Positions 12,176 through 27,621 of a DNA stretch of 30,902 nt are shown piece after piece (the first letter of the stretch is position 1; each line of letters starts with the position of its first letter). Made by a program: the position numbers and the translations under genes. Origin of the DNA: a virus; IMG/VR virus record IMGVR_UViG_3300030451_002304, positions 1 to 30,902 of that record; one strand, written 5' to 3'. The notes under the pieces were generated by a model. It worked only from the letters and a program-made list of their open reading frames with translations. It was not told the DNA's origin and ran no database searches.

Positions 12176-13462
12176 TCAAATGAACTGCGAGTAATCCTCC
12201 ATCTGCTGAGTGCCTTTGTTGAAAAGGATACGGCCCTGAGTATATCCCATGCCCTCACGCTGCTTGGCTAGAGTCCAGCGGACGTAATCAGTCCCCTGTT
12301 CCCTCTCTGATAGAGTCTGCCACAGGAATATAATGCTGTCAGCGTCCTGCTCCAAGGCTCCACTCTCACGAAGGTCGGACATAATAGGTGACCGGTCATC
12401 CCTTTCGGATTCACGGTTCACCTGCGCCAGTAACAGGACGGGTATGTCTAAGTCCTTGGCGAGTAGCTTCAACTCACGGCTGATCTCTGCGACCTGTTGC
12501 TCTCTGGATACGTTCTTGGACATAGGCTTTATCAGTTGGCAGTAATCAATAATGATTCCATTTACGTTATGCTTCCTGTGCATACCTCTGGCCGTTGCAA
12601 GTATGTGGTCCAGCCTGTATACGTTATCACGGATCCAGCAGTTCCAACCCTTTACGGTTTCGGTAGTCTCCCGAAGTGTCTGCATCTTGTCCTCTGGGGC
12701 TAGCCCGTCCTCAAACCTACGCATATGTAAGCCTGAGTTGATGCTGAAGATGCGCTTCATTATCTGGTTCACGCCCATCTCAAGATTAAAGAGAAGCACA
12801 CCATGACCAGTCGTGCATACGTTCTTTAAGAAGTTCAGGGCGTAGGCTGTCTTGCCACACCCTGGCCGTGAAGCTAGGACGCACAGTTGACCTGACCCGT
12901 ATCCGTTTCTGTACAAGACATCGTCAATGGATTGAATGCCAGTCCGCAGGTATCGAGAGTAATCTACTTTACCTATGACATCCTTATATGTTTGATCAAC
13001 AATAGTTTGCAGATTCTCTTTGTTTGGAATCAAAGAGGATATGGCATCGCACTGGCCCTGTATAGAAGTAAGGATTTCCTCGGAGTCCTTACCCTCCTGT
13101 AGGCCGTCCTTGATTATCAGCGAGAGGCGGTGGAGGTTCCGTGACTTGTAGGACTCCACCATGTCATCCATGAGTCCCTTGAAATGCAACTCACTGAGTC
13201 CCGCGTCATGCGTAGACCAGACTGAGCTAGCATCGAGTCCCTTCTGACCCTTGGACATATCCGTGAACAGAGACATCGTGCCAAGGATAACTCCCTTGGA
13301 GTCCAGTTTGCACATAGTCTCCCACATTGTGCGGGTGTCATAAGCCGTAAAGAAGTCAGCGTTAATGCCGGACTCCTTCGCCTCGTTCAACAGGGCATTG
13401 CAGCCATCGTTTATCTCAGCCTTGAGGATTGTCCCCAGTATACTCTTTTCTAATTCTTTCAT
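12176..13462 (-). CDS. dnaB-like: Replicative DNA helicase, DnaB family
   Basis: 428 residues, close to usual for phage DnaB. N-terminal domain 1-150 (EKSILGTILKAEI at 5-17), then a RecA-like motor: Walker A SRPGCGKTA (198-206), Walker B NGIIIDYCQL (301-310), the LLLAQVNR sensor strand (343-350) and SDLRESGALEQDAD (362-375), all DnaB signatures. It is expected to form a hexamer on the lagging strand and unwind the phage fork. No primase or polymerase gene is seen in the window, so it must work with host or out-of-window partners. It overlaps the upstream small gene by 47 bases. Confidence 0.95.
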   Translation of the reverse strand: MKELEKSILGTILKAEINDGCNALLNEAKESGINADFFTAYDTRTMWETMCKLDSKGVILGTMSLFTDMSKGQKGLDASSVWSTHDAGLSELHFKGLMDDMVESYKSRNLHRLSLIIKDGLQEGKDSEEILTSIQGQCDAISSLIPNKENLQTIVDQTYKDVIGKVDYSRYLRTGIQSIDDVLYRNGYGSGQLCVLASRPGCGKTAYALNFLKNVCTTGHGVLLFNLEMGVNQIMKRIFSINSGLHMRRFEDGLAPEDKMQTLRETTETVKGWNCWIRDNVYRLDHILATARGMHRKHNVNGIIIDYCQLIKPMSKNVSREQQVAEISRELKLLAKDLDIPVLLLAQVNRESERDDRSPIMSDLRESGALEQDADSIIFLWQTLSEREQGTDYVRWTLAKQREGMGYTQGRILFNKGTQQMEDYSQFI

Positions 13463-13697
13463 GGTTTTTAAGTTTTATGTTATGCTGGTTCCATTTGTCA
13501 ACTTGCGGTTCCCACTGTTCCTCGCCCTGCATTACCCATTCTTCTAAGTGGGCAAGGTCTTCAGAGTAAAGGGGTTTGTCAGAATAGATGGAGGTGAATC
13601 CATCGAATAGTCCACCCGCATCGGTTACGAATTTTACGACAACATTACAGGACTCAACCTTCTCGTTGTCCATGTTAAGCATGTAAGTGTATCTCAT
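13416..13697 (-). CDS. 93-aa hypothetical protein
   Basis: Start ATG overlaps the methyltransferase stop (ATGA). The protein begins MRYTYMLNMDNEKVESCNVV, has an acidic/aromatic middle (EDLAHLEEWVMQGEEQWEPQ) and a basic C-terminus. It ends 47 bases inside the helicase gene. No family recognised. Coupling to the methyltransferase suggests co-expression. Confidence 0.6.
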   Translation of the reverse strand: MRYTYMLNMDNEKVESCNVVVKFVTDAGGLFDGFTSIYSDKPLYSEDLAHLEEWVMQGEEQWEPQVDKWNQHNIKLKNHERIRKEYTGDNPQG

Positions 13698-15196
13698 ATT
13701 AACCTTTGGATTAATGTGACAAATGCCTTGGCTGCGGTAGCAGGAACTACTCCGTTTCCCAAGAGCCTAAGTCTGTCCACCCTACTGTTAGACCCATTAG
13801 ATGTTCGACCCAGTTGGGGTTCAGCTTGCCCGTTGCTTTCCCGCAATGACCCGCTATGTCCTCCTCCAGATTGGCTTTGTTCCGATTGGCTAGATGCTCC
13901 CGGTTCTCCTCCGTTATCTCTGGGTGAACCTTGTTGGCTCTTGGTGTCGGCCACGACTCTTGGCTCTTCCCACTCTTGTTGAGCTTCGCCCGGTCTGGCT
14001 GGCCAACGATGGATGGGTGGTTGCTCAATCCAACCTGACCGAAGTTCGGTTGGTTGCCTATCTTGGTCCCCTCCGCTGTTGTTGGTGTTGGCCAGTTCTT
14101 GACTTGACCGCCCAGATAGAGAGCTTTCGGGTTTTCCTTTGTCCCTGCGTAGTCGCTCCCCTTGGCATCGTTGGCTATCGGAGTTGCCCAGTTCTGAGGT
14201 TGCATTACTTCCTCTCTGAGGTTCTTGCACCCGCCCTTCTTGGCTTTCTCTGACCTCTCCTCTGGCTTTCTCACTACATTCAGATGATCCATCGTGCTTG
14301 GCGTTGCCCAACTCTTCACTTGAGTGCTGAGTCCGTCCCCGCTTGTCTTGCTCGCTCCCTTGCGGTTGTGATTCCCGCATACATTCGGCGTTGCCCAGTT
14401 CTTCTGTTTCTCCTCCTCCAGTAGGGCTATCTTTTCTCTGAGTTGAATGTTGTTCCACTTGCCGGACTTGATCTGATCCAATCTCATCCCCCCCGACACT
14501 TCCGCAATCGTTGGAGTAGGCCAGTTCTCCTCGTGGGTCTCTACTGCATCCCGCAGTTTTGCTCCGAAGGTTTGATTGCTCCTGTGCCTCTTGCTCTTGA
14601 AGCCCTCGTTGGTCATCTCCGTTTCGATACGTCCGCCCTCCGCGTCCGATGTCCTCGCTGTTGGCCATCCCAAGGATGAAGACTCGCTTTCTCTGATGAG
14701 GTGCGCCGACTTCTTCCGCTGAGAATATTCCTGCCGTTGCTCGGTAACCCATTCCTTCCAACTCTCTGAGGACATACTGGAGAACTGGCTCTCCGTCCCC
14801 AGTTTTGCAGGAGAGGATTCCCTGTACGTTTTCAAGGAAAACAATTCTAGGTTGGCACTCTCTGATTCCGTCTGCGATGTAGGGGAAGAGGTGTCTTGGG
14901 TCTTCAGTAGCTTGACGCTTTCCAGCAGCTGAGAATGGCTGACACGGGAATCCTCCAGAGAGGATGTCCACGAGTCCACGAAACTTTCTGTAAGGGAAGG
15001 TTTTAACGTCCGTGAACACAGGTGCTGCATCCAGTTCTCCCGCTTCCATCTTTGCAACCAAGTTCGCGACAGGGAATCCTTCCCTCTCCACGTAAGCGAT
15101 TTCTCGCAGATTTGGGAGAACTCTTCTGAGTCCAAGCCCAATGCCTTCGTATCCTGAGCATAAGCTGAGGTGTGTAATTGTTTTGGTAATATCCAC
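13694..15196 (-). CDS. dcm-like: DNA (cytosine-5) methyltransferase
   Basis: 500 residues from a GTG start; no in-frame ATG exists between an upstream TGA and motif I. Motif I LSLCSGYEGIGLG (10-22), motif IV GGFPCQPFSAAGKR with catalytic Cys85, motif VI LENV (121-124), motif VIII QRKRVFILG (168-176), and motif X LLGNGVVPATAAKAF near the end. Between VIII and X, where the target-recognition domain should be (about 178-470), the protein is a hydrophilic Gln/Ser/Gly/Arg-rich chain with repeated ELGNA/ELANT units and no obvious fold. That same DNA carries a second long frame (13747-15198). Likely methylates phage DNA against host restriction; its specificity cannot be read. Confidence 0.9.
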   Translation of the reverse strand: MDITKTITHLSLCSGYEGIGLGLRRVLPNLREIAYVEREGFPVANLVAKMEAGELDAAPVFTDVKTFPYRKFRGLVDILSGGFPCQPFSAAGKRQATEDPRHLFPYIADGIRECQPRIVFLENVQGILSCKTGDGEPVLQYVLRELEGMGYRATAGIFSAEEVGAPHQRKRVFILGMANSEDIGRGGRTYRNGDDQRGLQEQEAQEQSNLRSKTAGCSRDPRGELAYSNDCGSVGGDEIGSDQVRQVEQHSTQRKDSPTGGGETEELGNAECMRESQPQGSEQDKRGRTQHSSEELGNAKHDGSSECSEKARGEVRESQEGRVQEPQRGSNATSELGNSDSQRCQGERLRRDKGKPESSLSGRSSQELANTNNSGGDQDRQPTELRSGWIEQPPIHRWPARPGEAQQEWEEPRVVADTKSQQGSPRDNGGEPGASSQSEQSQSGGGHSGSLRESNGQAEPQLGRTSNGSNSRVDRLRLLGNGVVPATAAKAFVTLIQRLI

Positions 15197-15198
15197 AT
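13747..15198 (-). CDS. Overlapping 483-aa frame with WPTP repeats inside the methyltransferase gene
   Basis: Same strand, shifted frame, open from ATG 15198 to TAG 13747, nearly the whole methyltransferase length. Its ATG overlaps the methyltransferase GTG (ATGTG). It is protein-like: LTWRGKDSLSRTWLQRWKRE near the N-terminus, then Trp-Pro/Ala-Thr-Pro units (GWPTART, NWPTPTI, NWATPNV, SWATPST, NWATPIA, NWPTPTT, SWPTPRA), and a C-terminus LNPNWVEHLMGLTVGWTDL. I recall WPTP...LNPxWVExLMGxPxGWT proteins in phages, often labelled methyltransferase or hypothetical. The LMGxxxGW motif looks like the LxGFP of C5-methyltransferase motif IX. It may be a separate protein or a frameshift product. Certain: the long frame exists. 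Uncertain: that it is translated. Confidence 0.65.
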   Translation of the reverse strand: MWILPKQLHTSAYAQDTKALGLDSEEFSQICEKSLTWRGKDSLSRTWLQRWKRENWMQHLCSRTLKPSLTESFVDSWTSSLEDSRVSHSQLLESVKLLKTQDTSSPTSQTESESANLELFSLKTYRESSPAKLGTESQFSSMSSESWKEWVTEQRQEYSQRKKSAHLIRESESSSLGWPTARTSDAEGGRIETEMTNEGFKSKRHRSNQTFGAKLRDAVETHEENWPTPTIAEVSGGMRLDQIKSGKWNNIQLREKIALLEEEKQKNWATPNVCGNHNRKGASKTSGDGLSTQVKSWATPSTMDHLNVVRKPEERSEKAKKGGCKNLREEVMQPQNWATPIANDAKGSDYAGTKENPKALYLGGQVKNWPTPTTAEGTKIGNQPNFGQVGLSNHPSIVGQPDRAKLNKSGKSQESWPTPRANKVHPEITEENREHLANRNKANLEEDIAGHCGKATGKLNPNWVEHLMGLTVGWTDLGSWETE

Positions 15199-15572: not shown

Positions 15573-16049
15573 TTAGAAATCAAAGTCCGAGTCAGCGTTG
15601 GCTGGCTGGCTTATCTTCTTGGTTTGTGTTGTTGGCTTCTTGCCGTGATCATTGGTAGCATCAGCGTCCTTTGTATCGTCGATAGCAAAGAGTCCGTTGA
15701 GTGCGTATTTACGAGCGTAGGAACTAGCTGACCCAGTAATTTGTGAGTCATCCATACCCTTGCGAGTCTCTGATTCTCTAGCGAATCCATTTGCTTGGAT
15801 GGTGTATTCACCGCCTTCTGTACAGGCTAGCACAGCCATGGCCTTGACGTATATACGTCCACCTACTTCGACTACATCGTCAGTGATAACAAGCGTGCAA
15901 TTCCACTCAGCGAGCAGAGGTTTGACGGCTGTTAGTATATCTTCAGCGGAACGGTAAGCGTACCCGCCGAACTTATTAGTCTGCCCCTTCGGAGCTTTAA
16001 GGGATGACTGAATCCCTTTGAGTTTTGAATGAATATTCAATTTATCCAT
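15573..16049 (-). CDS. erf: ERF-family single-strand annealing protein
   Basis: 158 residues. YAYRSAEDILTAVKPLL (30-46) and GMDDSQITGSASSYARKYAL (98-117) followed by NGLFAIDDTKDAD are the hallmarks of the ERF superfamily (P22 Erf type), which forms rings on ssDNA and anneals complementary strands. The C-terminal tail is Thr/Lys/Gln-rich and ends SDFDF, an acidic aromatic tip like that of SSB. It works with the nuclease at 17520-18299 and the SSB-like protein. Its start overlaps the resolvase gene by 8 bases. Confidence 0.93.
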   Translation of the reverse strand: MDKLNIHSKLKGIQSSLKAPKGQTNKFGGYAYRSAEDILTAVKPLLAEWNCTLVITDDVVEVGGRIYVKAMAVLACTEGGEYTIQANGFARESETRKGMDDSQITGSASSYARKYALNGLFAIDDTKDADATNDHGKKPTTQTKKISQPANADSDFDF

Positions 16050-23033: not shown

Positions 23034-23274
23034 GTCAATCACGGATCCTAGCTATGACCCGATCTACGACCAGATTCGTGGTATCCTGGGAGAACATTTT
23101 GAGAACTACTGCTTCATAGTCATGAACGAGCAGGGTGAACTATTCTATGATTACAATCACCTGCCAGCAGGGAGGATGCTTTTGCATGAGATGCAGAAGG
23201 AACTTAGTGACGGTGGCATAAACTTTGAGTGGGAGTTCGAGAATGACCCCGATGACCTTGAGGAAGAAGAATGA
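23026..23274 (+). CDS. 82-aa hypothetical protein between terminase genes
   Basis: Overlaps TerS by 8 bases and TerL by 4 (ATGA). ENYCFIVMNEQGELFYDYNH then AGRMLLHEMQKEL is a compact alpha/beta protein with an acidic tail (DPDDLEEEE). I recall similar short proteins beside terminase in marine phages. Function unknown. Confidence 0.7.
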   Translation: MPKSITDPSYDPIYDQIRGILGEHFENYCFIVMNEQGELFYDYNHLPAGRMLLHEMQKELSDGGINFEWEFENDPDDLEEEE

Positions 23275-24920
23275 CCATTGAGTTCACAAAGCATCCAGTC
23301 CTAGAAGCCCCTACCGATGAAGAGATCGTTGTCCTCGGTGAGGCGGATCCTAAGCTGTTGGTTCAGCTGCACGAGGCTCACGAGGGTAGGATTCAGTCAG
23401 CACGGGAGGACCCACTGCGTCACGGATTTGAGCTAACCGGGTGGAGCCGAATGCGGAATGCGCTGAAGGATTACGATGAGGTTATTACCTTTGGTGGGAA
23501 CAGAAGCGGCAAGACAACGGGATGCGCCAAGATGGTCATGGAGGCCGTGACCGAGAACATGGACGGACACGTTGTATGCTTCAGCCAGAATGCGGACACA
23601 TCGATCAAGGTGCAGCAAGCTGCCGTCTGGGAGATGATGCCTAGGGAGTTCCGTAGGAAGACCAAGAGTATCGATGGTTACATTAACTTCAGTATGCAGA
23701 ACGGGTTCACGGGCAGTTCCTTTATCTTCCCGGACACAAGGACTAGAGTGGACTTCAAGACTTACACCCAGTTCAGTAATAACCAGACCATCCTAGAAGG
23801 TTTTGAGTTCGGTTTCCGTAACCCTACGGGAATGAATATAGGAGCCTGGCTGGACGAATACTTGGGGGACGCTGCGCTAGTCAACACCCTACGCTTTCGT
23901 CTTGCGACCAGAGACAGTAAGATGCTTTTGGGATTCACGCCGATTGATGGGTACACGCCATTCGTTTCGGATTACCTCAAGGGTGCTGAGACACTGGAGA
24001 CTAAGTCCGCGTCACTACTAGACGGAGAACAAGTTCCGGTGATTCAATACAGCCCTGAGCGAGATGCCGGCGTTGTCTACCTGCACTCTGACGAAAACCC
24101 CTTTGGCGGTTATGACCGCATAGCCAAGGACCTAAAGAACGCTAGCCGTGATACGATCATGGTTCGTGCCTACGGACTGCCCACGAAGTCAATGACTTCA
24201 CTGCTGCCGAACTTCAGCCCAGAGGTCAATGTCCTCAGCAACACGCCAAACAAGTATGGTATGTCCTTCCCCGACAAGGACTCCCTCACATGGTATCAAG
24301 TAGTTGACCCCGCCTTTGCGCGGAACTACGTGGCGATATGGGCAGGTGTCTCGCAGGACGAGGAGATATTTATACGCAGGGAGTGGCCGGACAGAGATAC
24401 CTACGGCGAATGGGCCTTGTTCGGTGACCCGAAGTGGCGCAAGGGTCCAGCTGCGGACAAGATAGGCTACGATGTGGAGAGGTACTGCGAACTCTTTCAG
24501 GACATAGAAGAAGAACTAGGTATCGAGGTTGTGGAACGTATAGGTGACTCTAGGTTCTTTGCCAAGGAGAACGAGAACAACGTGGATCTATTCACGGCCT
24601 TCTATGACTACGGAATGAACTTTACGCCGTCGGACGGACAGCAGGAGGGCATAGGTAACACCAGCCTGGACGATTGGTTCTTCTATAATCCGAACTACGA
24701 CCTTGATCCTGCCAACAGACCAAGGTGCTACGTGCATGAGGACTGCGGGAATCTTATTGAGAGCATGATTAATTACAATGCAGCCGGCAAAGCCGACGAA
24801 GCACTCAAGGACTTTTTTGATCTCATCCGTTATTTGCGAATGTCAAATGGCGGTATGGGTCCTGACTACTTTGCATCCTCCGATATGGGGATCACCAGAA
24901 AACAACAAGGAGGATACTAA
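23271..24920 (+). CDS. terL: Terminase large subunit
   Basis: 549 residues. ATPase: Walker A GGNRSGKTT (75-83), Walker B IGAWLDE (190-196), coupling motif LLGFTP (219-224). Nuclease: VVDPAF (344-349), IGDSR (424-428) and DFFDLIRY (514-521) supply the acidic residues of the RNase H-like fold. It drives DNA into the procapsid through the portal and cuts the concatemer. Start overlaps the upstream stop. The 3' end encodes QQGGY from a strong ribosome site for the next gene. Confidence 0.95.
   Translation: MTIEFTKHPVLEAPTDEEIVVLGEADPKLLVQLHEAHEGRIQSAREDPLRHGFELTGWSRMRNALKDYDEVITFGGNRSGKTTGCAKMVMEAVTENMDGHVVCFSQNADTSIKVQQAAVWEMMPREFRRKTKSIDGYINFSMQNGFTGSSFIFPDTRTRVDFKTYTQFSNNQTILEGFEFGFRNPTGMNIGAWLDEYLGDAALVNTLRFRLATRDSKMLLGFTPIDGYTPFVSDYLKGAETLETKSASLLDGEQVPVIQYSPERDAGVVYLHSDENPFGGYDRIAKDLKNASRDTIMVRAYGLPTKSMTSLLPNFSPEVNVLSNTPNKYGMSFPDKDSLTWYQVVDPAFARNYVAIWAGVSQDEEIFIRREWPDRDTYGEWALFGDPKWRKGPAADKIGYDVERYCELFQDIEEELGIEVVERIGDSRFFAKENENNVDLFTAFYDYGMNFTPSDGQQEGIGNTSLDDWFFYNPNYDLDPANRPRCYVHEDCGNLIESMINYNAAGKADEALKDFFDLIRYLRMSNGGMGPDYFASSDMGITRKQQGGY
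24907..24913 (+). promoter_or_regulatory. Strong Shine-Dalgarno inside the terminase 3' end
   Basis: AAGGAGG six bases before ATG 24920. It is one of few clear Shine-Dalgarno sites in the window; most starts lack one. Confidence 0.7.
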
Positions 24921-25291: not shown

Positions 25292-25544
25292 TAGAACAAA
25301 GATATTCTATGACAGGAATCCTCTAACCGGACAAGTAGAGGACGAGAACCTGACTCTGGATTACAAGTGGAACCAGCAGAACAGGGATCGTCTCATAATG
25401 TGGGAGACATTCAAGCGGTATGTGAAGCATGAATCCAAAGTCCCCATGACAAACATAGAGTTATGTGATAAGATAGGCAGTTCTAGGACTCATCTTGCTA
25501 GCATGATTCAACTAATAAAAGATAGACTAAATGCAGAACAGTAA
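25278..25544 (+). CDS. 88-aa hypothetical protein
   Basis: MSKVDRTKIFYDRNPLTGQV and a C-terminal helix-turn-helix-like stretch (NIELCDKIGSSRTHLASMIQ). Overlaps both neighbours by 14 bases. Could bind DNA, but I recognise no family. Confidence 0.65.
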   Translation: MSKVDRTKIFYDRNPLTGQVEDENLTLDYKWNQQNRDRLIMWETFKRYVKHESKVPMTNIELCDKIGSSRTHLASMIQLIKDRLNAEQ

Positions 25545-27621
25545 TATTTCAAAGGCCCTCACCTATGTAGGCACTGAGCCGGACATCACAACACTTCGAT
25601 ACGCTTACGAGGAAACAATAACGGAGCTTGAATCTTATTTTGATTTATGCCGTACGAGCTACGACGACCGCCGTAACTGGTGGCCGGGCAAGAGCCGCGA
25701 TCACCGCAAGCATGGCGCGGACGCATTTCCTTGGGAAGGTGCTAGCGATACTGAGTGCCATCTCATTGATGAACGCATAACGAAACTTGCATCCCTATTT
25801 ATCTCTGCACTCAAGAGAGCAAACGTCCGAGCGTTCCCCGTGGAAAGTGGAGACATTGCTCGAAGCAAACTAGTGTCAGGTTTCCTCAAGTGGATGATTC
25901 GTTCTGGATACATCCCCCGCTTTTACAGGGAGATGGAACTAGGTGCTAACTACCTGCTAGAGCGTGGACTTCTAGTCACCTACGTTGGGTGGCACATGGA
26001 GGATCGATCCTTTGAACAGGAGATTGACCTGCAGCAGATCGCACAAATATCTCCAGAAATCTTTCAGGCTGTAGAGCGAGGCGAAAACGATGAAGAGTTA
26101 ATCCTGCTCCTTCAGCAAGTTTTTGACGGCGTTACAGAAAAACGAGCAAAGAACGCACTCAAAGATCTACGTAAAAAAGGAATGGCGAAACTGCCCGTAG
26201 TGCGTCGTCAAATTAATTGCCCCGAAGTCAAAACCCTAGCACCTGATGGTGACTTTGTCTTCCCACCATATGTTACGGATCCGCAACGCGCACCGTATTG
26301 CTTTTGGAAAACGTATTACACTCCACAAGAACTAGAACTCAAGGTAACAACCGATGGTTGGGATCAGGACTTCGTAGACATCATGATCGAAAGATACCGA
26401 GGCGTAAACATTGACAGCCTTGAGCGATACGAAGAGGGCCGTCGCAGCATGAGCCTAACCGATACCGCATACGAAGCCGACGAACTTATTGAAATTATTT
26501 ACGGATACCAGAGACTGATCAATGAAGAGGACGGCTCCGAAGGAATTTACTGCACAGTATTTCATAAGAACTTTGATGGAGATGATGGAACTGGGACTCC
26601 CGGATATGCAAAGTTCGAGCTACTCAACGGATACGAAGACTATCCAGTAGTAGTGACACGCTTATCCGAGGACACTAAGCGTCTCTATGATGTATCCACC
26701 GTTCCCAGTATTCTTCGTGGTATTCAGAACCAAGTAAAGGTAGAGCGTGATTCACGCATTGACCGCAATAGCCTAGCTACTTTGCCTCCAATCCTGCACC
26801 CAGTAGGCCAAGCACCCAATGACTGGGGACCAGGTCGTATGATTCCATACCGTCGTAAGGGTGATCTGGACTTTGCACCGACTCCTGCGTACAACCAAGG
26901 TTCACTTGAGATGGAGCAGACACTGCTCAATCAAGCTGACAGGATGATTGGACTGGATCCGAATGACCCAATGTCTCAATCCAGACAACAGTTCATGGTT
27001 GATAAGTATCTTAGTCACGTATCTGAGGTAATCCGTATGGCTTACAAGTGCTTCCAAAGATTTGGACCCGATGAGGTCTTCTTCCAGGTAACTGGCATCC
27101 CTGACCCTCAAGTAATAAACAAAGGAGATCCGAACGAGAACTTTGACATCATGATTAACTTTGATGTGCTTGACAGTGACCCAGATACAGTAGAAAAGAA
27201 ACTACAAGGTTTCGTTGCATTGAATCAACTCAATGTTAATAACCGAATGAATGTTGATGGATTACTTGATATTGCAGCCGCTAGCATCGATCCAGTCATG
27301 GCTGACGCGGTTCTACAACCTGCACAAGATGCTCAACAAGAGATGGTTAAGAATGTCACAGATGATCTTACAAAGATTTTTGCAGGTATTGAAATGCCAG
27401 CCCGTCCTACAGGCGCACAGATTGCTATGCAAGTCATTCAGCAATACGCCCAACAGCCTGATGTCCAGCAACGCCTACAGCAGGACGAAGCATTCCGGGG
27501 ACGCATGGAGAAATACCAAGGTCAATACACCTTCCAGATGCAGCAAGCGCAGAACGCCCAGATTGGTCGAGTCGGCACAGCCCCTGCACAGATGGGTAAG
27601 ATCAACACTCAAAATATGTAA
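25531..27621 (+). CDS. Portal protein
   Basis: 696 residues, following terminase. Portal-like features: the N-terminal AYEETITELESYFDLCRTSY and WPGKSRDHRKHGADAFPWEG with SDTECHLIDERITKLASLFI (clip/wing entry), the SILRGIQNQVKVERDSRIDR stem helix, the WGPGRMIPYRRKGDLDFAP region, and a Gln/Ala-rich C-terminus (PTGAQIAMQVIQQYAQQPDV) typical of podovirus portals with a barrel. Length suits the large podovirus portals. It forms the dodecameric DNA gate and head-tail joint. The 3' end overlaps the next ATG (TAATG). Confidence 0.85.
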   Translation: MQNSNISKALTYVGTEPDITTLRYAYEETITELESYFDLCRTSYDDRRNWWPGKSRDHRKHGADAFPWEGASDTECHLIDERITKLASLFISALKRANVRAFPVESGDIARSKLVSGFLKWMIRSGYIPRFYREMELGANYLLERGLLVTYVGWHMEDRSFEQEIDLQQIAQISPEIFQAVERGENDEELILLLQQVFDGVTEKRAKNALKDLRKKGMAKLPVVRRQINCPEVKTLAPDGDFVFPPYVTDPQRAPYCFWKTYYTPQELELKVTTDGWDQDFVDIMIERYRGVNIDSLERYEEGRRSMSLTDTAYEADELIEIIYGYQRLINEEDGSEGIYCTVFHKNFDGDDGTGTPGYAKFELLNGYEDYPVVVTRLSEDTKRLYDVSTVPSILRGIQNQVKVERDSRIDRNSLATLPPILHPVGQAPNDWGPGRMIPYRRKGDLDFAPTPAYNQGSLEMEQTLLNQADRMIGLDPNDPMSQSRQQFMVDKYLSHVSEVIRMAYKCFQRFGPDEVFFQVTGIPDPQVINKGDPNENFDIMINFDVLDSDPDTVEKKLQGFVALNQLNVNNRMNVDGLLDIAAASIDPVMADAVLQPAQDAQQEMVKNVTDDLTKIFAGIEMPARPTGAQIAMQVIQQYAQQPDVQQRLQQDEAFRGRMEKYQGQYTFQMQQAQNAQIGRVGTAPAQMGKINTQNM

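Follow-up and report, generated by a model that had tools for sequence, protein, structure and literature searches.

The stretch of DNA analyzed here (the window) comprises 30,902 bases of a 35,132-base virus record, which is judged to derive from a phage by its neighboring genes, i.e., a DnaB-like helicase (12176-13462), an Erf-like annealing protein (15573-16049), and a terminase large subunit (23271-24920). A 696-aa ORF downstream of the terminase (25531-27621) has no PHROG match. Two long reading frames overlap on the minus strand: alpha (13694-15196), the C5-methyltransferase frame (frame 0), encodes 500 aa from a GTG start, and beta (13747-15198), the overlapping +1 gene, encodes 483 aa from an ATG start. 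The ATG of beta overlaps the GTG of alpha as ATGTG (15194-15198, minus strand). The +1 frame is open from 15291, where a stop lies upstream, through the ATG at 15198 to the stop at 13747, with 483 codons counted from the ATG.

Alpha contains the blocks LCSGYEGIGL, GGFPCQPFS, ENVQG, and QRKRVFI (14675-15163, minus strand), which we take to represent motifs I to VIII of a catalytic C5 DNA methyltransferase, including the PCQ and ENV elements. The first part of the chain matches PF00145 (E 1.1e-34, aa 8-212); the match stops at aa 212, which corresponds to position 183 of the 324-position profile, and the recognition region and motif IX are therefore absent from the match of frame 0. Toward the C-terminus of alpha, a conserved block, RWPARPGEAQQEWEEPRVV (13952-14008, minus strand), precedes motif X, RVDRLRLLGNGVVPATAAKAF (13721-13783, minus strand); in 35 sequences, R413 of this block is invariant, and R401, P402, Q406, W409, E410, and P412 are conserved in at least 90%. 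Between the catalytic motifs and motif X, the frame-0 product is of low complexity in the middle of the overlap. The chain with motifs I-VIII thus has neither a recognition domain nor motif IX of its own; motif IX sits in the +1 frame, where beta ends in the motif IX-like sequence LNPNWVEHLMGLTVGWTDL (13768-13824, minus strand) followed by seven residues. This stretch overlaps motif X (RVDRLRLLGNGVVP, 13721-13783) by 16 nt.

The initial annotation, which was made from the letters and ORFs of the window, had placed C5 motifs I to VIII and X in one frame, and both the PF00145 match and the motif positions agree with it. It had also described a 483-codon frame on the same strand with seven W(P/A)T(P/A) units and the above C-terminal sequence, all of which were found; the W[PA]T[PA] units in beta number exactly seven. 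Its reading of LMGLTVGW as a motif IX-like sequence in the +1 frame that overlaps motif X is borne out by profile comparison, since in an hhalign search of the beta profile against single-chain enzymes the aligned part is motif IX only (25 columns, probability 88.5, E 2.7e-6). The large domain of C5-methyltransferases is described as comprising motifs I-VIII and part of motif X, and the small domain as comprising the TRD and motif IX (PMC5944983); the two frames of the window appear to divide the enzyme along this line.

The seven units of beta are arranged as consecutive cassettes on the minus strand. Cassette 1 (WPTARTSDAEGG..., 14524-14667) resembles family 0, which has 72 members; cassette 2 (WPTPTIAEVSGG..., 14398-14523) is the center of family 17 (7 members), and cassette 3 (WATPNVCGNHNRKG..., 14311-14397) that of family 15 (9 members). 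Cassette 4 (WATPSTMDHLNVV..., 14191-14310) is delimited as a sequence unit, while cassettes 5 (WATPIANDAKGSDYAG..., 14095-14190), 6 (WPTPTTAEGTKIGN..., 13954-14094), and 7 (WPTPRANKVHPEIT..., 13825-13953) resemble examples of families 10, 5, and 3, respectively.

The relatives of this locus show the same parts in several architectures. A pattern script was applied to 307 loci, representing 236 distinct entries, and with patterns of our own choosing, on which the class counts depend, it assigned 124 entries to the nested class, 26 each to the split and single classes, 6 to the tripartite class, and 3 to other forms, with 51 left unclassed; a stricter first version had left 66 of the 307 loci unclassed, compared with 51 of 236 in the relaxed version. 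The script required a C5 catalytic domain, so that co-occurrence with such a domain is no evidence. Among single chains, gp68 of mycobacteriophage Hamulus, in which motif IX reads EWMMGWPAGWV, and gp4 of Gordonia phage Jabberwocky each run from motifs I-VIII through several LPTP cassettes to motifs IX and X in one polypeptide. The split class is in the +1 phase with a median overlap of 191 nt; in mycobacteriophage Twister, gp79 carries motifs I-VIII and then ends, and the +1 ORF gp78 contains the LPTP cassettes and motifs IX and X. Between motifs VIII and IX, the +1 frame is stop-free in all six tripartite entries, whereas the frame-0 stops there have a median count of 16.5; in three of these entries (L200, L208, and L209), motif X and a WPxRPG..W.EPRVV block were found by reading in a short open stretch of their own, and the RWPARPGEAQQEWEEPRVV block of alpha is also kept in the tripartite relatives printed. 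Conversely, in 25 of 26 single chains the +1 frame is interrupted by stops in the VIII-IX interval. These stop patterns imply that the cassettes are open in whichever frame bears them and that the middle of frame 0 can be lost. At the sequence level, relatives have these cassettes and motifs IX and X either in one chain or in a clean split.

Several individual loci depart from these forms. In Gordonia phage Neville (L226, 840-1703), motifs I-VIII, IX, and X lie in one frame and a cassette, FPTPRSADAIAGPDFSRANRPNSGGDDLV, lies in the +1 frame, representing a possible intermediate or a frameshift. Two single chains (L240 and L256) have the +1 sequence PTSG(M/T)TR(N/S)G just before the cassettes and near motif VIII, similar to the start of Twister gp78, which raises the question of whether it is a trace of a former split. 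In the second copy of Paenibacillus macquariensis (L309, 1239-2147), motifs I-VIII run in-frame into a cassette-like end with QLNPTWVEWLMGFPTGWTDL and without motif X; this copy may be an indel fusion or may be decaying.

Across nested, split, single, and tripartite entries, 652 cassettes with a median length of 47 aa fall into 87 families, 23 of which have at least four members; this clustering excludes cassettes longer than 65 aa and replaced a single-linkage version in which 527 of 629 cassettes had collapsed into one family. Twelve of the 87 families are common to more than one architecture, and one is common to a Paenibacillus nested gene and single-chain actinophage enzymes. The 124 nested genes display 99 distinct cassette orders. 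Such sharing and reordering would be expected of exchangeable recognition units, by analogy with multispecific phage methyltransferases; several such units are present in beta, with their interchange judged by sequence.

The homology of beta points in the same direction. The family phrog_1008, labeled 'DNA methyltransferase', matches the +1 protein of the window (E 9.4e-18), the nested +1 proteins of Paenibacillus (4.7e-43) and ABMM1 (5e-28), Twister gp78 (4.1e-87), and residues 298-485 of the single-chain enzyme L229 (4.2e-80). On the window, its positions 36-281 match in the +1 frame and positions 288-323, which cover motif X, in frame 0; the family crosses between frames between motif IX and motif X. 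PF00145 extends nearly end to end over one single-chain enzyme (L255, residues 1-347, profile positions 1-317 of 324), and its best stretch in the longer L229 is 1-183. Pfam and NCBIfam gave no match to the beta of the window, nor did Pfam match five further nested betas at E 10; the beta profile found nothing convincing in the PDB (best E 1.6). The predicted structure of a one-cassette beta relative is poor (five models, pLDDT 54, pTM 0.23) and unusable as a search query. A predicted single-chain relative reached pLDDT 70.8, with its cassette region (197-272) below 50, and aligned with M.HhaI (Z 24.0, rmsd 3.5, 233 residues aligned), which supports the modeled fold of the single chain and not that of the cassettes.

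It is improbable that beta is a real overlapping gene whose product acts outside the methyltransferase, e.g., as an inhibitor, a nuclease, or an anti-defence protein. Such a role would suit its N-terminal 170 aa, which have no profile-alignable counterpart in single-chain enzymes, and the lack of confidence in the structure model; however, phrog_1008 matches both the C-terminal half of the single chain and the split half of Twister, and motif IX is absent from alpha and present in beta.

The openness of the +1 frame was assessed on loci from two viral-contig scans, one with the protein of each frame, from each of which 80 loci were kept; together with the window locus and two GenBank phages, these gave 152 loci with 102 distinct methyltransferase-frame sequences, and relatives of both proteins are present in all of them. 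The second frame is in the +1 phase in 100 of the 102; in the other two (L022 and L024), the phase count is displaced by an additional match in a different frame, and the +1 start is at its usual place. Among 86 distinct complete pairs, the +1 frame is stop-free from its own start in 85, including 74 with no stop across the whole scored stretch and 11 in which the lone "stop" is the TGA within the methyltransferase ATGA, ahead of the +1 start. These pairs provide a fairer test than the nested class, whose definition presupposes open frames and makes its 124/124 open counts partly circular. The sole real internal stop in beta occurs in L152, and L079, whose +1 frame is interrupted, was considered broken and excluded from the 86; sequencing error, decay, and loss are all possible for both interruptions. 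When the codons of frame 0 were shuffled synonymously (1000 shuffles for each of 10 sequences), the +1 frame acquired a mean of 5.6 to 12.9 stops and was never free of them, and the third frame contains 9-34 stops across the 86 sequences.

Both frames have start codons within 11 nt of each other in 98 of 99 scored sequences. The arrangement of the window, in which the +1 ATG and the frame-0 GTG overlap as ATGTG with the same spacing, is found in 82 of the 98, and a methyltransferase ATG located 7 or 10 nt upstream of the +1 ATG in 12; the rarer arrangements are +11 (two sequences), +5 (one), and GTGTG (one). The 99th sequence, from Acinetobacter phage ABMM1, was missed by the start script, and its ORFs start at 2520 and 2524. 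The listed +1 ORFs of Paenibacillus and Kroppenstedtia begin about 180-200 nt inside the methyltransferase ORF.

Substitution rates were estimated for both frames at once, with the first letter denoting the effect in the methyltransferase frame and the second the effect in the +1 frame (N, changing; S, silent); the rates are limited by the relatedness of the pairs, the saturation of dSS, and the small size of single families. Over the whole overlap (450 pairs of 3-20% divergence from 70 sequences), dNN was 0.128, dSN 0.270, dNS 0.266, and dSS 1.371, i.e., doubly silent changes are far faster than those silent in one frame only, and purifying selection is thus seen on both frames. In the motif I-VIII region, dSN/dSS was 0.12 (0.09-0.29) for the +1 frame versus 0.87 (0.38-2.08) for the control frame +2; in two comparisons, the values were 0.12 and 0.34 for +1 and 0.87 and 1.18 for the control, which is unconstrained. 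Within the cassettes (16 families from nested genes, aligned per family and pooled), dNN was 0.075, dSN 0.058, dNS 0.788, and dSS 1.144, corresponding to a dN/dS of 0.05-0.10 in the +1 frame and of 0.69-1.31 in the methyltransferase frame; here, clear constraint falls on the +1 frame only. The +1 protein is therefore the selected one in the cassettes, and the low-complexity methyltransferase stretch over them appears close to neutral filler. By sequence, both frames are open and under constraint, and the cassettes code in the +1 frame and not in frame 0.

Judged by each of these sequence tests, the second frame is a real gene. The initial annotation had offered two readings, a true overprinted gene or recognition parts reached by ribosomal frameshifting, and the former is favored by the openness of 85 of the 86 pairs and by the constraint on both frames. 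Its placement of recognition parts in the second frame fits the +1 constraint on the cassettes and the phrog_1008 homology, and relatives that keep the methyltransferase motifs and have stops in the second frame were sought in the nested family and not found. Under frameshifting, ribosomes would start in frame 0, shift to +1 after motif VIII for the recognition parts and motif IX, and return for motif X, yielding one long chain. Single-chain relatives with the same order of parts, and the possible genomic indel fusion in the second P. macquariensis copy, lend this some appeal; nevertheless, it would take two shifts, a separate start of beta lies at most 11 nt from that of alpha in all 98 sequences with a scored start, and the +1 frame is constrained ahead of motif VIII, whereas a gene reached by frameshifting would have no start of its own and would be coding only past the shift site. 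We regard frameshifting as very unlikely. The chance that the +1 frame is an untranslated by-product of composition bias and repeats in the methyltransferase frame is negligible, since, although the frame-0 product is of low complexity in the overlap and translation of beta is so far inferred, synonymous shuffles never yield an open +1 frame, and the rival is already contradicted by a cassette substitution pattern opposite to its prediction and by the six relatives that lose the frame-0 middle yet keep +1 open.

The locus very probably encodes a split C5-methyltransferase, the large domain (motifs I-VIII and X) and the small domain (recognition and motif IX) of which are read from overlapping frames, with shuffled cassettes. 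Frame 0 would give alpha, the large catalytic domain with motifs I-VIII and X, and the +1 frame would give beta, the small domain, composed of an N-terminal region, one to seven exchangeable cassettes (about 30-48 aa, starting with W/LPTP), and motif IX. Ribosomes would initiate both products at the overlapping start codons (ATGTG in the window), and alpha and beta would then assemble into one active enzyme whose targets are set by the cassettes. We infer the translation of beta, an alpha-beta complex, recognition by the cassettes, several targets per enzyme, and protection of phage DNA. The assignment of the two frames to two structural domains of one enzyme, and the shuffling of cassettes between phages that the comparison of relatives indicates, go beyond the initial annotation.

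Two-polypeptide split C5-methyltransferases are already known. M.EcoHK31I (recognition sequence YGGCCR) has been described as naturally split (PMC3439449), and according to PMC3404938 its larger subunit contains motifs I-VIII and X and its smaller subunit motif IX. By its sequence, the window pair is partitioned in the same way, motif IX being encoded apart from motifs I-VIII and X; the comparison with M.EcoHK31I was made by description. The gene for the large subunit of M.EcoHK31I contains the coding sequence of the small one in a different frame. However, the predicted recognition domain of this enzyme was placed by the authors in the large subunit (PMC3404938), whereas in the window the cassettes, up to seven and shuffled, accompany motif IX in the small frame. 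M.AquI is likewise a two-subunit enzyme, in which the large subunit is reported to contain motifs I-VIII and the small subunit part of the variable region with motifs IX and X (PMC3404938); it resembles the window in its large subunit, but its motifs IX and X lie together in the small subunit, as in Twister, and are separated in the window. These precedents make the present system a variant of an existing type. The single-chain LPTP-cassette enzymes, i.e., Hamulus gp68 and Jabberwocky gp4, have the part order of the window, and there are some shared cassette families; unlike in the window, all parts lie in one frame. The multispecific C5-methyltransferases of Bacillus phages SPR, phi3T, and rho11s contain several short recognition units in a row, of about 40 aa each, and their tandem arrangement resembles that of the window, but they are formed by one chain in one frame and their specificity is measured, whereas that of the window is predicted. 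The ShiLan element, in which a phage methylase carries an inserted HNH gene that is out of frame with it (PMC11855218), is a different thing. The label of phrog_1008 is silent on the small-domain half and on overprinting. No paper on an overprinted recognition subunit was found in an open-access collection with few subscription papers. The placement of recognition cassettes in the overprinted frame and the shuffling of these cassettes appear to be new, as do the overlapping start, the neutral middle of frame 0, and the transition series.

Related sequences occur in phage records and in bacterial genomes. In a tblastn search of 50,697 phage records, the Paenibacillus query matched 86 records, ABMM1 116, and Twister 572, and inspection identified the nested form in Salmonella phage S9-5, Klebsiella phage BUCT711, and Paenibacillus phage Leyra. 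Among 5426 complete E. coli genomes, 4 contain a locus closely related to that of S9-5, and among 197 genomes sampled from the family to which Paenibacillus macquariensis belongs, 13 match phrog_1008. A further 27 loci, three of which are the window itself, comprised 13 unclassed loci, two views of one frame-fused copy, and otherwise nested loci. In GenBank, Phage C75C1, ABMM1, and S9-5 (L002, L003, and L222) are annotated with the methyltransferase frame alone, and Leyra (L221) with both overlapping CDS. In mycobacteriophage Kampy, both DNA methylase genes (77 and 78) are reported to be transcribed, with 78 highest at 15 minutes (PMC4626039); these data show that a split pair is transcribed and do not show that a nested one is translated.

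To our knowledge, there are few documented cases outside small viruses of a long overlap between same-strand genes in which both products have a clear function. We consider it reasonably likely that phages and prophages of several phyla keep a domain-over-domain device, in which frame 0 encodes the catalytic domain of an enzyme and the +1 frame a recombining array of recognition cassettes with one target each, so that a single short locus provides a fixed catalytic subunit and a freely evolving multispecific specificity subunit, and in which the frame-0 middle is neutral and lost to stops in some relatives. Since one-chain, split, nested, and three-piece forms of one enzyme exist, the origin of the overlap can be studied stepwise. 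The low-complexity middle of such phage cytosine methyltransferases would be explained as an overprint, and annotation of one frame, as in Phage C75C1, ABMM1, and S9-5, would miss the specificity half of the enzyme; the shuffled cassettes predict many new methylation specificities.
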